Part shown: in pieces, positions 2,188 through 7,898 of the stretch
How positions within the stretch are numbered: the first letter of the stretch is position 1
Layout: the number at the start of each line of letters is the position of its first letter
Source of the DNA: Gemmatimonadaceae bacterium
GTDB taxonomy: Bacteria; Gemmatimonadota; Gemmatimonadetes; Gemmatimonadales; Gemmatimonadaceae
Assembly (NCBI GenBank): GCA_025358925.1
Contig: JANYHT010000069.1
Span: 1-36,494 of the forward strand
Length of the DNA: 36,494 nt
Reading direction: 5' to 3'
The notes under the pieces: generated by a model
The model's input: the letters and a program-made list of their open reading frames with translations, nothing else
Told to the model about the DNA's origin: nothing
Databases searched by the model: none
Made by a program: the position numbers and the translations under genes

Positions 2188-3279
2188 ATGGCGGACGATG
2201 CCGGCGAAAAGACAGAAGACCCCACAGGCAAGCGCCTGGAGGAAGCGCGATCGCGAGGACAGATCGCAAAAAGTCCAGAGCTCATGACGGCCGTGCTATT
2301 GCTCGGATCGACGATGACGCTCTCGATGGCGGGACCAACGCTGTGGCGCTTCCTGCTTGATACGATGGGTCAGAGCTTGGCCACTTCATCTGATGTCGAA
2401 CACGCCGGCGCTTCAGTCATTCCGTATATACAGTCAATGGGATTTCGCGCCATCGTCGCGATGGTCGGTGTCATGGGCGCGATGGCGGTTATGGCGCTTG
2501 CCGTTCAGGCCGCGCAAACCGGCTTCATGTTTTCGACCAAAGGGCTTGCACCCAAGTGGAACAAGCTCAATCCGATGAACAATCTCAAACGACTGCTTGG
2601 CAAACAGTCACTCATTGAGCTGGCGAAAGCATTGCTAAAAATGAGCATCGTCAGCTGGGCCGTGTACGCCACGCTCAGCGATGCATGGCCCGACATTCAA
2701 GGGCTGGCGCTGCAAACACCGACTGCCTTGCTCGCCGTCATACAGAAGTATTGCTTGGCGTTGTTGCGCAATGCGGGTTTGATGTTTCTCGCGCTCGCCG
2801 GTGCCGACTATGCGTGGCAGCGCTTTAGTACAACACAAAGCCTGCGTATGACGAAGAATGAAGTGAAGGAAGAGAACAAAGCGCAGGAGGGCGATCAGGG
2901 GATGAAGGGTCGTCGCCGAGCGATTGGTCGGGAACGTATACGTCGTCAGATGTTTGCTGCGGTGCCCAAAGCCGATGTGGTGATTGTGAATCCGATTCAT
3001 ATCGCCATCGCCATTAAGTACGATCCGAGCATTGCACCAGCGCCGTACGTGGTCGCACTCGGCCAACGCAAGATCGCGCTACGCATCAAAGAACTCGCCT
3101 TTCAGCACGGTGTGCCCGTCATTGAAAATATCCCGCTGGCGCGCGCGCTGATCGCATCAGCGAAAGTCGGTACTGTCATTCCGGTCGAGATGTATCTCGC
3201 CGTGGCTGAAGTGTTGGCGTTCGTGTTGAAGCAACGTGAACGCTATGGCTCGCGCTGGCGTGGAACGGTGGCCGCATGA
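2188..3279 (+). CDS. flhB: Flagellar export switch protein FlhB, variant NPIH site
   Basis: A 363-residue protein with the FlhB N-terminal signature (EKTEDPTGKRLEEARSRGQI), four hydrophobic segments, and the cytoplasmic domain starting near 225 (MTKNEVKEENK). FlhB cleaves itself between Asn and Pro of NPTH to switch export from rod/hook substrates to filament substrates. Here the motif reads N268-P269-I270-H271 (2989-3000), so Thr is replaced by Ile while the cleaved Asn-Pro pair and His remain. Length and flanking residues (VIVNP, then AIAIKYD) are otherwise normal. Translation is coupled to flhA by a four-base overlap. Confidence 0.95.
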   Translation: MADDAGEKTEDPTGKRLEEARSRGQIAKSPELMTAVLLLGSTMTLSMAGPTLWRFLLDTMGQSLATSSDVEHAGASVIPYIQSMGFRAIVAMVGVMGAMAVMALAVQAAQTGFMFSTKGLAPKWNKLNPMNNLKRLLGKQSLIELAKALLKMSIVSWAVYATLSDAWPDIQGLALQTPTALLAVIQKYCLALLRNAGLMFLALAGADYAWQRFSTTQSLRMTKNEVKEENKAQEGDQGMKGRRRAIGRERIRRQMFAAVPKADVVIVNPIHIAIAIKYDPSIAPAPYVVALGQRKIALRIKELAFQHGVPVIENIPLARALIASAKVGTVIPVEMYLAVAEVLAFVLKQRERYGSRWRGTVAA

Positions 3280-5393
3280 CCACCACGGCGTCGTCCGTTC
3301 CGTTCGAGAGTGCAAACTCGCGGAAGCGTGCCGAAGCGGCACTCGCGCTCTCCGTCGTACTCATTTTGGCGTTAATCGTTGTTCCGCTGCCGCCGGTGCT
3401 GCTCGACTTGTGTCTCGCGGCAAGCATCGGTCTGTCGCTCGTGGTGTTGCTCGTCGCGTTGTACACCACAAATCCGCTCGACTTCAGCAGCTTCCCAGCA
3501 CTGCTGCTGTTGTTGACCCTGTTTCGTATTGGTCTCAACGTTTCGTCAACGCGACTGATTCTCACGCATGGTCACGCCGGCAAAGTGATCGAAGCGTTTG
3601 GACAGTTTGTGATTGGCGGAAACTACGCAGTTGGTATCGTCATTTTCCTGTTGTTGATCGGCATTAATTTCATCGTTATTACGAAGGGTGCTGGTCGTAT
3701 CGCCGAAGTGGGAGCGCGTTTCACCTTGGACGCGATGCCAGGCAAGCAAATGGCCATCGACGCCGACCTCTCTGCAGGACTGATCGACGAAAAGGAAGCG
3801 CGTTCGCGCCGCAATGAAATCTCCCGCACCGCGGATTTTTACGGCGCGATGGACGGCGCATCCAAGTATGTAAAGGGTGACGCCGTACTCGGTCTGCTCG
3901 TGGTGGCGATCAACATTTTGGGCGGCATTTTCATTGGCGTTGTGCAGAAGGGCATGGACATCACCAAGGCGGCCAGCACCTACACACTGCTGACTGTTGG
4001 TGATGGCTTGGTGTCTCAAGTACCGGCGCTGATCATCAGCACCGCTGCCGGTTTGATGGTTACGAGCGCAACGGGTACAGATCGCATTGGCGTGGTGTTG
4101 AGCCGCCAATTGGGTGGACATCCGCGTGCCATGTGGATGGCGGCTGGTGTGCTGTCGTCATTCGCGCTTGTGCCGGGGCTACCGATGTTTCCGTTTCTTT
4201 CGCTGGGTATTGGCGCGGCGTTTCTCGCGCGATCAGCCAGCAAGAACGAAATCCGTCGCAATGCACTCGCGCTGGTGTCGGATGCGCCGGTTGCGGAAGC
4301 GCCCGCGCCGGCGGACCCGATGCGTGATCTGTTGCAGCTCGATCCGATCGAGCTTGAAGTGGGCTACGCGCTCATTCCGTTGGTGGACGAGGGACAGGGT
4401 GGTGATCTGCTTGAGCGCATTTCGTTGCTGCGCAAACAAGCCGCGCTGGAACTCGGCATTCTCGTACCGCCCATTCGTATTCGCGACGACATCCGCCTTC
4501 CCGCCAACGAGTATGTCATCAAGTTGCGCGGTTCCGAAGTTGCACGCGCGGAAGTGTTGCCACGGTTCATGATGGCGTTGGACACCGGTGGTGTTGTTGC
4601 AGAGATCGACGGGATGGAAACAGTTGATCCGTCGTTCGGTATGCCGGCCCGTTGGGTCGCGATGTCGCGTCGCACCGAAGCTGAAGCCTTAGGCTACGTC
4701 GTCGTCGAACCGACGACCGTGATTGCGACACATCTGTTGGAGACGCTCAAGACGAGCGCTGCAGATTTGCTTGGTCGCCAAGAAGTGCAAGAAATGGTGG
4801 AGACCCTGAAGAAGACACATCCGGCGCTTGTGGAAGAAATTATTCCGGGCAAGGTGTCGCTCAGCGTGCTGCATCGGGTGCTCCAGCGGTTACTGCGCGA
4901 GCGCGTGCCTATTCGCGATCTCGTCACGATTCTTGAAGCAATTGGCGATGGCGCAGAAACTACAAAGGATCCAGAAGCACTCACCGAAATTGTGCGCAGA
5001 TCGCTTACCAACGTCATCGCGCGCCTGTTTGCCGATCAAAGCGGACTTGTTCGCGGCATCACGATTGGCGCGAAGCTCGAGTCGGCATTGCTCGGTCTTT
5101 TCTCTCCGCGTGGTGCGCAGCCGAACGCACCGATGCTCACGCCCGATTCGCTGGCCGCGATGCTACGCGACCTCAATCACATGGCAACCACTTATGCCAT
5201 TGACGGACGCCCGTTGCCCCTCATCACACCGCCGTCGTTGCGCATTGGCGTTCGTCGTCTGATCGAACCCGTGCTACCGAGTTTGCCTGTGATCTCGCTG
5301 GCAGAACTGCCGCCGTCTATCACGCTCAGTAGCGTGGCCACTTGGGAAATGCAGCATGCCGCCACGCAATACGCAGGATCTTATGCCGCTTGA
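3276..5393 (+). CDS. flhA: Flagellar export gate protein FlhA
   Basis: A 705-residue protein, typical length for FlhA. The N-terminal half has about eight hydrophobic helices. Between them lies the conserved cytoplasmic loop with PGKQMAIDADLSAGLID and the R-R-N-E-ISRTADFYGAMDGASKYVKGDA region (about residues 155-205, quoted in parts). The C-terminal half (from about 345) is the soluble FlhA-C domain that docks chaperone-substrate complexes and forms the nonameric ring. ATG 3276 overlaps the flhB stop. The last ten bases overlap the flhF start. Confidence 0.97.
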   Translation: MTTTASSVPFESANSRKRAEAALALSVVLILALIVVPLPPVLLDLCLAASIGLSLVVLLVALYTTNPLDFSSFPALLLLLTLFRIGLNVSSTRLILTHGHAGKVIEAFGQFVIGGNYAVGIVIFLLLIGINFIVITKGAGRIAEVGARFTLDAMPGKQMAIDADLSAGLIDEKEARSRRNEISRTADFYGAMDGASKYVKGDAVLGLLVVAINILGGIFIGVVQKGMDITKAASTYTLLTVGDGLVSQVPALIISTAAGLMVTSATGTDRIGVVLSRQLGGHPRAMWMAAGVLSSFALVPGLPMFPFLSLGIGAAFLARSASKNEIRRNALALVSDAPVAEAPAPADPMRDLLQLDPIELEVGYALIPLVDEGQGGDLLERISLLRKQAALELGILVPPIRIRDDIRLPANEYVIKLRGSEVARAEVLPRFMMALDTGGVVAEIDGMETVDPSFGMPARWVAMSRRTEAEALGYVVVEPTTVIATHLLETLKTSAADLLGRQEVQEMVETLKKTHPALVEEIIPGKVSLSVLHRVLQRLLRERVPIRDLVTILEAIGDGAETTKDPEALTEIVRRSLTNVIARLFADQSGLVRGITIGAKLESALLGLFSPRGAQPNAPMLTPDSLAAMLRDLNHMATTYAIDGRPLPLITPPSLRIGVRRLIEPVLPSLPVISLAELPPSITLSSVATWEMQHAATQYAGSYAA

Positions 5394-6225
5394 ACGCATT
5401 CGCGGAGCAGACATTTCGCATGTCGCCGATCGTGCCCGCCGCACGTTGGGTGATGACGTCATGATCTTACACACGCGCATGGTACGCGAAGGTGGCGTGT
5501 CCATGGTGGAAGTGCTCGCTGCCCCGTCATCGGTGATTGATCGAGTACGCGCACAGCTGGAACCGCAGCCGTTTCCGCGCAACATGCGCGCGGCCGATGG
5601 GGCGCCGTATCGCATTGCGCTGGTTGGACCAACCGGCGCCGGCAAGACGACAACGGCAGCGAAATTGGCGGTACGTCGTGGCATGTTTGGCGCCGCTCGA
5701 CCAGGGTTGCTGACGCTCGACACGTATCGCGTGGGCGGCATGGAGCAACTCGCGACGTATGCAGAACTTGCCGACGTGCCGTTTGAAGTGGTGTTTGACG
5801 CGCGTGATATTCCGGCCGCGATGAAAAGATTGTCGTCATGCGACGTGGTGATCATCGACACGCCGGGGCGTAGTCCTGCGTCGGCAGAGCTGACTGAACG
5901 CTGGCGAACGTTGCTCGACGAGCTCGCGCCGGATGAAGTGCATCTCGTGATGCCGGCGACAGTGCGCGCCGACCTCGCGATGGATATTGGTCGCGCGTAT
6001 AGCGCAACGAAAGCGCATCGCGGCGCGACGCATGTGTTGCTGTCGAAGGTTGATGAAGTGCCGCGCGAATCCGGTATCGCTGATCTCGCACTTTCGTTGG
6101 ACATGCCGACACGTTGGGTCAGCGATGGGCAAGATGTACCCGCCGATCTCAAGCCTGGTGTGCAACGCATGTTACGCGCGTACGGATTACCGGTAGATGC
6201 GGAAGCTGACTGGATGCCCGCATGA
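5383..6225 (+). CDS. flhF: FlhF-type SRP-family GTPase, short N-terminus
   Basis: A 280-residue SRP-type GTPase. The P-loop is GPTGAGKTTT (82-91), followed by the LTLDTYRVGG (G2) and IIDTPGRS (G3) motifs and LSKVDE (G4) near 220. FlhF sets flagellar site and number in many bacteria, with FlhG as partner. ATG 5383 has AGGA four bases upstream and overlaps the flhA end; an earlier in-frame ATG (5356) is possible. The basic region before the G domain is only about 75 residues, shorter than in well-studied FlhF proteins (350-450 residues), so this is a compact form. The gene is coupled to flhG by an ATGA overlap. Confidence 0.9.
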   Translation: MPLERIRGADISHVADRARRTLGDDVMILHTRMVREGGVSMVEVLAAPSSVIDRVRAQLEPQPFPRNMRAADGAPYRIALVGPTGAGKTTTAAKLAVRRGMFGAARPGLLTLDTYRVGGMEQLATYAELADVPFEVVFDARDIPAAMKRLSSCDVVIIDTPGRSPASAELTERWRTLLDELAPDEVHLVMPATVRADLAMDIGRAYSATKAHRGATHVLLSKVDEVPRESGIADLALSLDMPTRWVSDGQDVPADLKPGVQRMLRAYGLPVDAEADWMPA

Positions 6226-7106
6226 CGGCGCCCGTCGTGACATCCAACCGCGGTGGATCGCAAATCGATGCGCTGTTGCGCGACGCGAATCGTGGCCACG
6301 CGCGCGATGCACGCCATCATGCGGATGAGCGTGGCGTGCCAACGCTGTTGTGCGCGAGTGGGCGTGGCGGCAGCGGCACATCGCTGATTGCCACGCTCCT
6401 CGCCGTCGCGGCGGCGGGAGAAGGTTATCGCGTATTGCTCGTAGACGCTGATGATCTTGTTGGACCGATCGCGATGCTGCTCGGTGTCAAAGCACGTGCG
6501 AGCTGGCAGGATTTGCGTGGTGGTCGCGTGCAGCCGATGGATATCGCACTCCGACTGAGCACGACGCTCACATGTGTTGCCGGTGGTGCGGCGCGCGTTG
6601 AACACGGTGCCGCGTCGCTGGTGACGGCCGCCGAACGGAAAGCGTGCATGCGTCGCGTGAGTACGTTGGCCGAACACATGGATCTTGTGGTCATCGACTG
6701 TGGATCGCGCGTCGATACGCTGATGGCAGCGATCACGCCGCATGCGAATGAACGACTGCTTACCGTCACGGCCGGAAGTGATCCGATCGCACTCGCGGCG
6801 ACGTTCGCGTTGTGCAAGGCTGCGCGTATGCGCGCGGGTGCCCTTTCGCTGGATGTACTCGTCAATCGGCATGAGGGAGCCGAAGCGGCGCATTGCTTCG
6901 ACGTCATCGATGCCGGCGCTCGCCAATTTCTTGGAACTGCACTGCGTTTTGCTGGTGCGGTGCCCATCGATCCGACGCTCGACACTGCGCTTCGTGCAGG
7001 GATGTCCTTCCCCGATGCCGTCGCTGGTTCGCCCGCAGCAATTGCCGCTCACGAAGTCGTGATGCGCGTGCTCACCGGCGCCTCTCTCTCCCGCTCAGGT
7101 ACCTGA
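6222..7106 (+). CDS. flhG: FlhG/MinD-like protein with degenerate P-loop
   Basis: A 294-residue protein placed and shaped like FlhG (YlxH/FleN), the MinD-family ATPase that limits flagellar number and acts on FlhF. The fold is recognisable: VLLVDADDLVGPIAMLLGV resembles the MinD segment after the P-loop, and LVVIDCGS matches the Walker B strand. The deviant Walker A motif, normally K-G-G-x-G-K-S/T, is R48-G-G-S-G-T53-S54 (6360-6383), so both lysines are gone. Lys loss at the second position should strongly weaken ATP binding or hydrolysis. It may be an inactive FlhF partner. The N-terminal tail keeps a DQ-like QIDALLR segment (about 14-20), as in FlhG activators of FlhF. Confidence 0.85.
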   Translation: MTAPVVTSNRGGSQIDALLRDANRGHARDARHHADERGVPTLLCASGRGGSGTSLIATLLAVAAAGEGYRVLLVDADDLVGPIAMLLGVKARASWQDLRGGRVQPMDIALRLSTTLTCVAGGAARVEHGAASLVTAAERKACMRRVSTLAEHMDLVVIDCGSRVDTLMAAITPHANERLLTVTAGSDPIALAATFALCKAARMRAGALSLDVLVNRHEGAEAAHCFDVIDAGARQFLGTALRFAGAVPIDPTLDTALRAGMSFPDAVAGSPAAIAAHEVVMRVLTGASLSRSGT

Positions 7107-7142
7107 ACCGTGTCCCTTGCCACACTCCAAGGATCTCCCGCC

Positions 7143-7898
7143 ATGACCACTCAGCTCTGGCAGTCGTACCACGCGGGTAATCAGTCCGCCCGTGATCGTC
7201 TGCTCGAAGATCACTTGGGGCTTGTCCATCATGTCGCACGTCAGGTATCGCGCACGCTTGCGGTTCGCGCCGACTTTGATGAATTGGTAAGCGCCGGAAC
7301 GATTGGCCTGATGACCGCGCTGGAAGGATTCGATTCGTCGCGCGGTCTCGCGTTTAGTACGTTTGCGGCACCGCGAATTCGCGGCGCGATCCTCGACGAA
7401 CTGCGCAAACAGGATCACGTGCCGCGTTCGATTCGTCGCAAGACGCGCGACATGTCGGCCGCACGCGAAGCCTGGATGCGCGCCCATGGACGCGCGCCCG
7501 AAGATCGGCAGTTGGCTGAACAGTTGGGGATTGACATGGACACGTTGTGGCGCTGGCAGGCTGACGTCGAAGGCGCACATCACATGCCGTTGGATCGTGC
7601 GCCAGGTGATCGCGAAAACAACGCGCCGACGCCAGCTGACATGCTACCAGGTTGCGAAGAATCAGAAATCGAAGACAGTCTCACACATGAACAGGAAGTC
7701 GCTCATCTCAAACATGCGATTTTGCGATTGAAGGATCAGGAGCGTGTGGTGTTGTCGCTGTACTACTTCGAAGAGCTCAAGCTGCACGAAATCGCAAAAG
7801 TGCTTGAGCTCACCGAGTCGCGCGTTTCACAAATTCGCTCAAAGGCCTTGAGTAAGCTGCGTGTTGATCTGAAGCCGTTGCGCGAGCAAGTGGCGTGA
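7143..7898 (+). CDS. fliA: Flagellar sigma factor FliA (sigma-28)
   Basis: A 251-residue group 3 sigma factor. Region 2 is clear (LVSAGTIGLMTALEGFD, then FSTFAAPRIRGAILDELR), followed by PRSIRRK of region 3 and region 4 with the helix-turn-helix LHEIAKVLELTESRVSQI. The order and RGAILDELR motif match the FliA/WhiG family, which directs late flagellar and chemotaxis genes. ATG 7143 was chosen because AAGGA lies nine bases upstream; a GTG at 7110 could add 11 residues. The anti-sigma gene flgM is not in the window. The stop overlaps the next gene by four bases. Confidence 0.95.
   Translation: MTTQLWQSYHAGNQSARDRLLEDHLGLVHHVARQVSRTLAVRADFDELVSAGTIGLMTALEGFDSSRGLAFSTFAAPRIRGAILDELRKQDHVPRSIRRKTRDMSAAREAWMRAHGRAPEDRQLAEQLGIDMDTLWRWQADVEGAHHMPLDRAPGDRENNAPTPADMLPGCEESEIEDSLTHEQEVAHLKHAILRLKDQERVVLSLYYFEELKLHEIAKVLELTESRVSQIRSKALSKLRVDLKPLREQVA

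Follow-up and report, generated by a model that had tools for sequence, protein, structure and literature searches.

A Gemmatimonas FlhG without the lysines of the deviant Walker A motif, and a possible departure from the usual ATP cycle

The window analysed here, a stretch of 36,494 nucleotides from a Gemmatimonadaceae bacterium (contig JANYHT010000069.1), carries flagellar genes in the order flhA-flhF-flhG-fliA, as in P. aeruginosa. It belongs to Gemmatimonas; among public sequences, a Gemmatimonadaceae MAG (94% identity) and a Gemmatimonas sp. come closest. The features of the locus are as follows, with residue numbers referring to FlhG.

3276..5393, + strand: flhA, upstream in the same operon (ORF position)
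5356..6225, + strand: flhF, 289 aa, with a shortened N-terminal part (SRP54 GTPase domain, 5.5e-27)
6222..7103 (stop codon to 7106), + strand: flhG with a variant Walker A motif, 294 aa (profile search, AlphaFold2 model, fold comparison)
6261..6326, + strand: N-terminal enhancer helix (residues 14-35), with the DQAxxLR motif in the form SQIDALLR (a helix in the model)
6261-6263, + strand: codon of Q14, the Gln of the enhancer helix
6360..6383, + strand: Walker A variant G47 R48 G49 G50 S51 G52 T53 S54 (canonical form GKGGxGKS/T)
6444..6452, + strand: D75-A-D77 of the switch I region, both Asp present in 23/23 aligned genus sequences
6696..6710, + strand: Walker B D159 and switch II D-C-G-S-R163, with R163 at the site of an invariant Gly in canonical FlhG
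6798..6800, + strand: A193, at the position of Vibrio FlhG D171 and P. aeruginosa FleN D159
6864..6866, + strand: N215, a conserved Asn at the presumed base-recognition position (alignment)
7110..7898, + strand: fliA, flagellar sigma factor, downstream of flhG (TIGR02479, 2.6e-63)

The earlier note described an FlhG that lacks both lysines of the deviant Walker A motif although its gene is full length, in frame and coupled to flhF, and this description is accurate: the motif reads exactly R48-GGSG-T53-S54, and the start of flhG overlaps the stop of flhF (ATGA at 6222). The GTPase motifs of FlhF are intact, among them the P-loop (GPTGAGKTTT), on which the note had said the same. TIGR03499 matches this FlhF in two pieces (model positions 1-55 and 200-286) that fall below the cut-off, and about 145 positions are missing from the 289-residue protein between the start of that model and the GTPase domain. 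With the window flhA as query, one FlhA per genome was found in 12 relatives, with a match to the FHIPEP family in one relative.

P-loops without lysines are frequent among CpaE/TadZ-type proteins, and the protein encoded beside flhF could be one of these, or another ParA protein, instead of an FlhG. In NCBIfam it indeed scores highest with the CpaE-like Ssd model, at 2.3e-13 and far short of that model's cut-off, and Liberibacter CpaE has KGGVGSS, with R/H at the signature lysine (PMC8513845). However, a profile built from 66 relatives scores FleN (2.4e-72) and Geobacillus FlhG (8.5e-65) far ahead of archaeal MinD (3.4e-32) and the ParA-family structure 3ea0 (4.3e-18), and FleN and FlhG also top the fold comparison, where the AlphaFold2 model of the window protein (mean pLDDT 89.7) best matches FleN-AMPPNP (VIA Z 28.8; 243 residues at rmsd 2.4), with Geobacillus FlhG on a par. 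In addition, the gene order is Pseudomonas-like and a tree groups the clade with FlhGs of a family, f2, that bear the DQAxxLR motif. On profile, fold and gene order we reject a CpaE/TadZ identity and see only a very slim chance for it; the locus is flagellar and not a tad/cpa pilus locus. The window protein is an FlhG by descent that departs from the family in its Walker A motif. In a phmmer alignment with P. aeruginosa FleN, R48 pairs with the signature lysine K19 and T53 with the P-loop lysine K24.

A search of 395 genomes of the phylum gave a match in 95, and we checked the conservation of the R/T change among the relatives. None of the 24 Gemmatimonas genomes (including the window's own; 23 genus sequences are in the alignment) has a lysine at position 48 or 53: the former is Arg in 24/24, while the latter is T in 19, A in four, S in one and K in none. 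Codons at the motif positions vary synonymously, the flhG frame is intact in every one of these genomes, and two genomes in the set are complete and come from cultured species: G074, taken as G. groenlandica TET16, and G039, taken as G. phototrophica AP64 (PMC7844134), both of which contain reaction-centre genes. A sequencing or assembly error at the two codons, for which nothing speaks except the draft state of the window's genome (72 contigs), is refuted by the agreement of the 24 genomes, which far exceeds chance, the varying codons and the two complete genomes, and its probability is practically nil. As for an ATPase supplied in trans, an FlhG query on the same genome finds no second canonical FlhG or MinD; it returns two Mrp-like proteins (KGGVGKS), one weak ParA-like match and nothing more.

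Outside the genus, lysine-less FlhGs mostly read K-GG-x-G-T/A/V-S (32/48), with the signature lysine kept and the P-loop lysine gone. Both lysines are present in family f2, which belongs to the same order, and in Azospirillum, Pseudomonas, Bacillus, Aeromonas and Acetoanaerobium; FlhGs of other phyla were sampled from plasmid records only, and separate lysine losses may have occurred there. In a tree of 86 FlhGs (16 lysine-bearing and 70 lysine-less, with columns 48, 53 and 163 omitted), the P-loop lysine is lost once, on a branch of length 0.8 and support 100/100 that leads to the ancestor of the 70-member clade, in which Gemmatimonadaceae are joined by further families of the same class. Losses of the signature lysine came later, around eight in this tree; the residue is Arg throughout Gemmatimonas, a change that the genus has in common with its sister genus g21 through a shared ancestor. 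Being conserved clade-wide, the lysine change is real and old. Taxonomy and gene tree disagree on f2: by taxonomy it shares an order with the window's family, whereas the gene tree places it outside a clade that unites that family with families of other orders (f4-f6). The flagellar locus of f2 may therefore have had a history of its own. This conflict bears on when the lysine was lost; on the gene tree the loss is still a single one. A tree of FlhA is compatible with that of FlhG when unrooted and cannot root it, its single outgroup row being unusable (branch 3.2).

All 23 aligned genus sequences have G49, G50, G52, S/T54, D159 and N215, which also show almost no variation across the clade; K199 is invariant too, and the genus retains P248 and D250 as well. 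The residue at position 215, which we take to serve in base recognition, is Asn in 23/23 genus sequences, 42/48 other lysine-less FlhGs and 16/16 lysine-bearing ones. D75 and D77 are both invariant in the genus; D75 is mostly kept in the clade, D77 in only 25/48 of the other lysine-less FlhGs and in 3/11 of the lysine-bearing family f2. The invariance of S/T54, D75, D77, D159 and N215 within the genus suggests that nucleotide still matters. As a separate observation, eight of the 11 f2 FlhGs (L065-L067, L070-L072, L074-L076, L078, L081) have S, A or E at switch I position 77, and since these proteins are without the catalytic switch I Asp despite both lysines, weak hydrolysis is possible in f2 too.

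Close pairs of Gemmatimonas FlhGs give a dN/dS of ~0.1 (0.04-0.12), similar to values for FlhF and for lysine-bearing FlhG, and this low ratio identifies flhG as a maintained protein and no dying gene. Elsewhere in the clade, FlhG can be strongly reduced. In genus g4, a mini-FlhG of ~190 aa has a deletion that extends from the P-loop helix almost to Walker B and takes out switch I and neighbouring strands, and in the model a compact core is still present (mean pLDDT 81.5):

L092:3607-4158 and L093:3608-4159 (genomes G023, G021): mini-FlhG, 190 aa, directly after flhA, no FlhF in the genome

FlhGs of genus g8 (L080, L086 and L087), encoded beside flhF, have the P-loops EGAGATT, RRGSGVS or RRGSGAS and a partly deleted switch I. 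Such extreme erosion, in the g4 mini-FlhG and in the switch I of the three g8 genomes, would be expected if flhG were being lost and the motif change were neutral degeneration. We regard this as very unlikely for Gemmatimonas, where the dN/dS range resembles that of FlhF and lysine-bearing FlhG, the frames are intact in every genome and the fold is conserved, as judged by the confidence of the model (mean pLDDT 89.7).

A column comparison of the 16 lysine-bearing with the 70 lysine-less FlhGs reveals further changes. Switch II residue 163 is Gly in 16/16 of the former and Arg in 53/70 of the latter (23/23 aligned genus sequences; 31/48 other lysine-less FlhGs), residue 140 goes from Ala (13/16) to R/K (57/70), residue 187 from Glu (16/16) to mostly Asp, and the Asp found at residue 193 in 15/16 lysine-bearing FlhGs occurs in 0/70 of the lysine-less clade. 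R163 arose on the same branch as the loss of K53 and was later lost in several lineages in which no lysine was regained. Asp193 equals FleN D159 and Vibrio FlhG D171, the latter two being related by a constant offset of 12 (K19/K31, D48/D60). In Vibrio, D171A increases ATPase activity sevenfold and strengthens both polar localization and the inhibition of flagellation, FlhG with mutated Walker A residues is non-functional and the cells are hyperflagellated, and D60A abolishes hydrolysis, leaves ATP binding and affects function only slightly (PMC7226244). The Walker A phenotype indicates that losing the lysines has a cost for an ordinary FlhG and, judged by it and by D171A, the lysine-less clade pairs in nature a loss-of-binding-type change with an activating-type one. 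D60A, for its part, already hints that hydrolysis is partly dispensable in FlhG.

The C-terminal tail of Gemmatimonas FlhG has 10 residues, is unstructured in the model and is without an amphipathic membrane-targeting helix; tails of 25-32 residues that read as such a helix are found in the FlhGs of Pseudomonas, Bacillus, Aeromonas and Acetoanaerobium. The f2 tails are also short and without the helix, and the membrane helix was therefore gone before the lysine or was never present.

Retained and altered residues together could describe a rewired but working ATPase, in which R163 and R48 replace the lysines at the phosphate in a TadZ-like manner and FlhG still cycles with ATP. The appearance of R163 on the branch of the K53 loss, the basic residue at 140 and the conservation in the genus of the P-loop Gly residues, S/T54, D75, D77, D159, N215, P248 and D250 are consistent with this, as are reports on lysine-less relatives: E. 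rectale TadZ without either lysine is reported to retain ATPase activity, a lysine of an adjacent helix compensating (PMC10482377), and the K52A and K57A mutants of MSMEG_3743 reportedly keep theirs (PMC10482377). Against it stand the later disappearance of R163 from lineages that did not regain a lysine, the poor conservation of D77 in the wider clade and in f2, and the lack of a membrane helix on which an ATP dimer could rely. We consider a rewired ATPase possible, with the odds somewhat against it. The retained P-loop Gly residues, Mg-binding Ser/Thr, Walker B Asp and Asn, the new R163 and the reported TadZ activity also bear on the earlier note's proposal that this FlhG no longer hydrolyses ATP, which is plausible and goes beyond these results.

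FlhG is known to activate FlhF through the Gln of its N-terminal DQAxxLR helix (PMC12826062). Most f2 FlhGs have DQAxxLR itself, and Gemmatimonadaceae have [ST]Qx[DE]xL or similar; in the SQIDALLR of the window, Gln and Leu are kept and the Asp and the +5 Arg are gone, and P. aeruginosa FleN is also without the motif. The Gln is present in 23/23 genus sequences with a readable N-terminus, the +5 Arg being often lost. Seven genomes from genera g4, g6, g20 and g28 (G021, G023, G244, G176, G254, G143 and G342; completeness 93-100%) have FlhA and FlhG and no FlhF, with matches only at the level of Ffh/FtsY, and the enhancer helix is absent from the FlhGs of all seven. The link between FlhF and helix is imperfect, as nine lysine-less FlhGs adjoining flhF are also without a recognisable helix.

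In the usual model, flagellar number is set by an ATP-driven monomer-dimer and membrane cycle of FlhG. Our preferred reading, to which we assign a probability of about one half, is that the window protein is a true FlhG that has given up the MinD-type ATP cycle or changed it profoundly and is now a non-cycling, active-like activator of FlhF. Rather than shuttling between a membrane-bound ATP dimer and a cytosolic monomer, such a protein would stay permanently in an active-like state, in which R48, R163 and the main chain might hold a nucleotide. This FlhG would limit flagella by stimulating the FlhF GTPase via Q14 and also by contacts with the flagellar base, those with the C-ring being reportedly nucleotide-independent in Geobacillus and Shewanella (PMC7226244), so that flagellar number would follow from the amount of FlhG and from FlhF, not from an ATP switch in FlhG. 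We favour the non-cycling reading because the loss of the lysines, by descent and under selection, went along with that of further elements of the ATP-membrane cycle, whereas the Gln that activates FlhF was kept, because some lineages discard nearly the whole nucleotide site and yet keep FlhG, as in the 190-aa mini-FlhG, and because FlhF-less relatives are also without the enhancer helix. It is weakened by the frequent loss of the +5 Arg in the genus and by the nine helix-less FlhGs adjoining flhF. The earlier note's interpretation is thus supported in part: the conservation across the clade for which it told readers to look is found, and three results agree with a role as scaffold or FlhF activator, namely the retained co-catalytic Gln, the missing membrane helix and purifying selection. 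More tentatively, the FlhG of the whole lineage may be permanently outside the ATP cycle, a membrane-free, constitutive activator of the FlhF GTPase, locked in the active state by its altered switch II, that in some genera has outlasted FlhF and most of the nucleotide site.

G. phototrophica, the only species for which we found a flagellar count, has cells with a single flagellum (PMC9862903), and number control is thus not visibly broken with a lysine-less FlhG. As FlhG is still strongly conserved next to FlhF in Gemmatimonas and its relatives, flagellar number control in these bacteria may bypass the usual ATP cycle. A clade that had lost the P-loop lysine by the time its genera separated, and that includes a single-flagellate species, is a natural experiment on what in FlhG is indispensable, and the complete succession of forms, starting with canonical FlhG and leading via KGGxGTS and RGGxGTS to the 190-aa remnant, offers a way to reconstruct how an ATPase turns into a regulator.

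The FlhG/FleN proteins of P. aeruginosa, Geobacillus and Vibrio share with the window protein the fold, the flhA-flhF-flhG-fliA order, the Walker B Asp, the base-recognition Asn and the FlhF-activating Gln, whereas the window protein has no Walker A lysines, Arg for Gly at 163, no D171 equivalent and no C-terminal membrane helix. Lysine loss is already known in ParA/MinD relatives. TadZ/CpaE pilus proteins have independently lost the P-loop lysine with the Gly skeleton and Ser/Thr kept, some with Lys to Arg at the signature position, but they serve a pilus, have no FlhF partner and are further away in sequence and fold than FleN/FlhG. McdA, which positions carboxysomes in S. elongatus, is likewise a ParA/MinD protein without the signature lysine; unlike in the window protein, only that lysine is reported missing, and its ATPase is strong (PMC6328274). 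MinD is of the same fold and superfamily, but differs in possessing the two lysines, in its C-terminal membrane helix and in acting together with MinC/MinE. Our searches of open-access papers found no description of a lysine-less FlhG, or of FlhG in Gemmatimonadota. Finally, in one draft genome (G376) the C-terminal part of FlhB is joined to an additional FlhG-like domain whose P-loop reads GKDGAGAS (L046:7963-9213); the fusion lies between full-length flhB and flhA and is absent from two relatives of the same genus.
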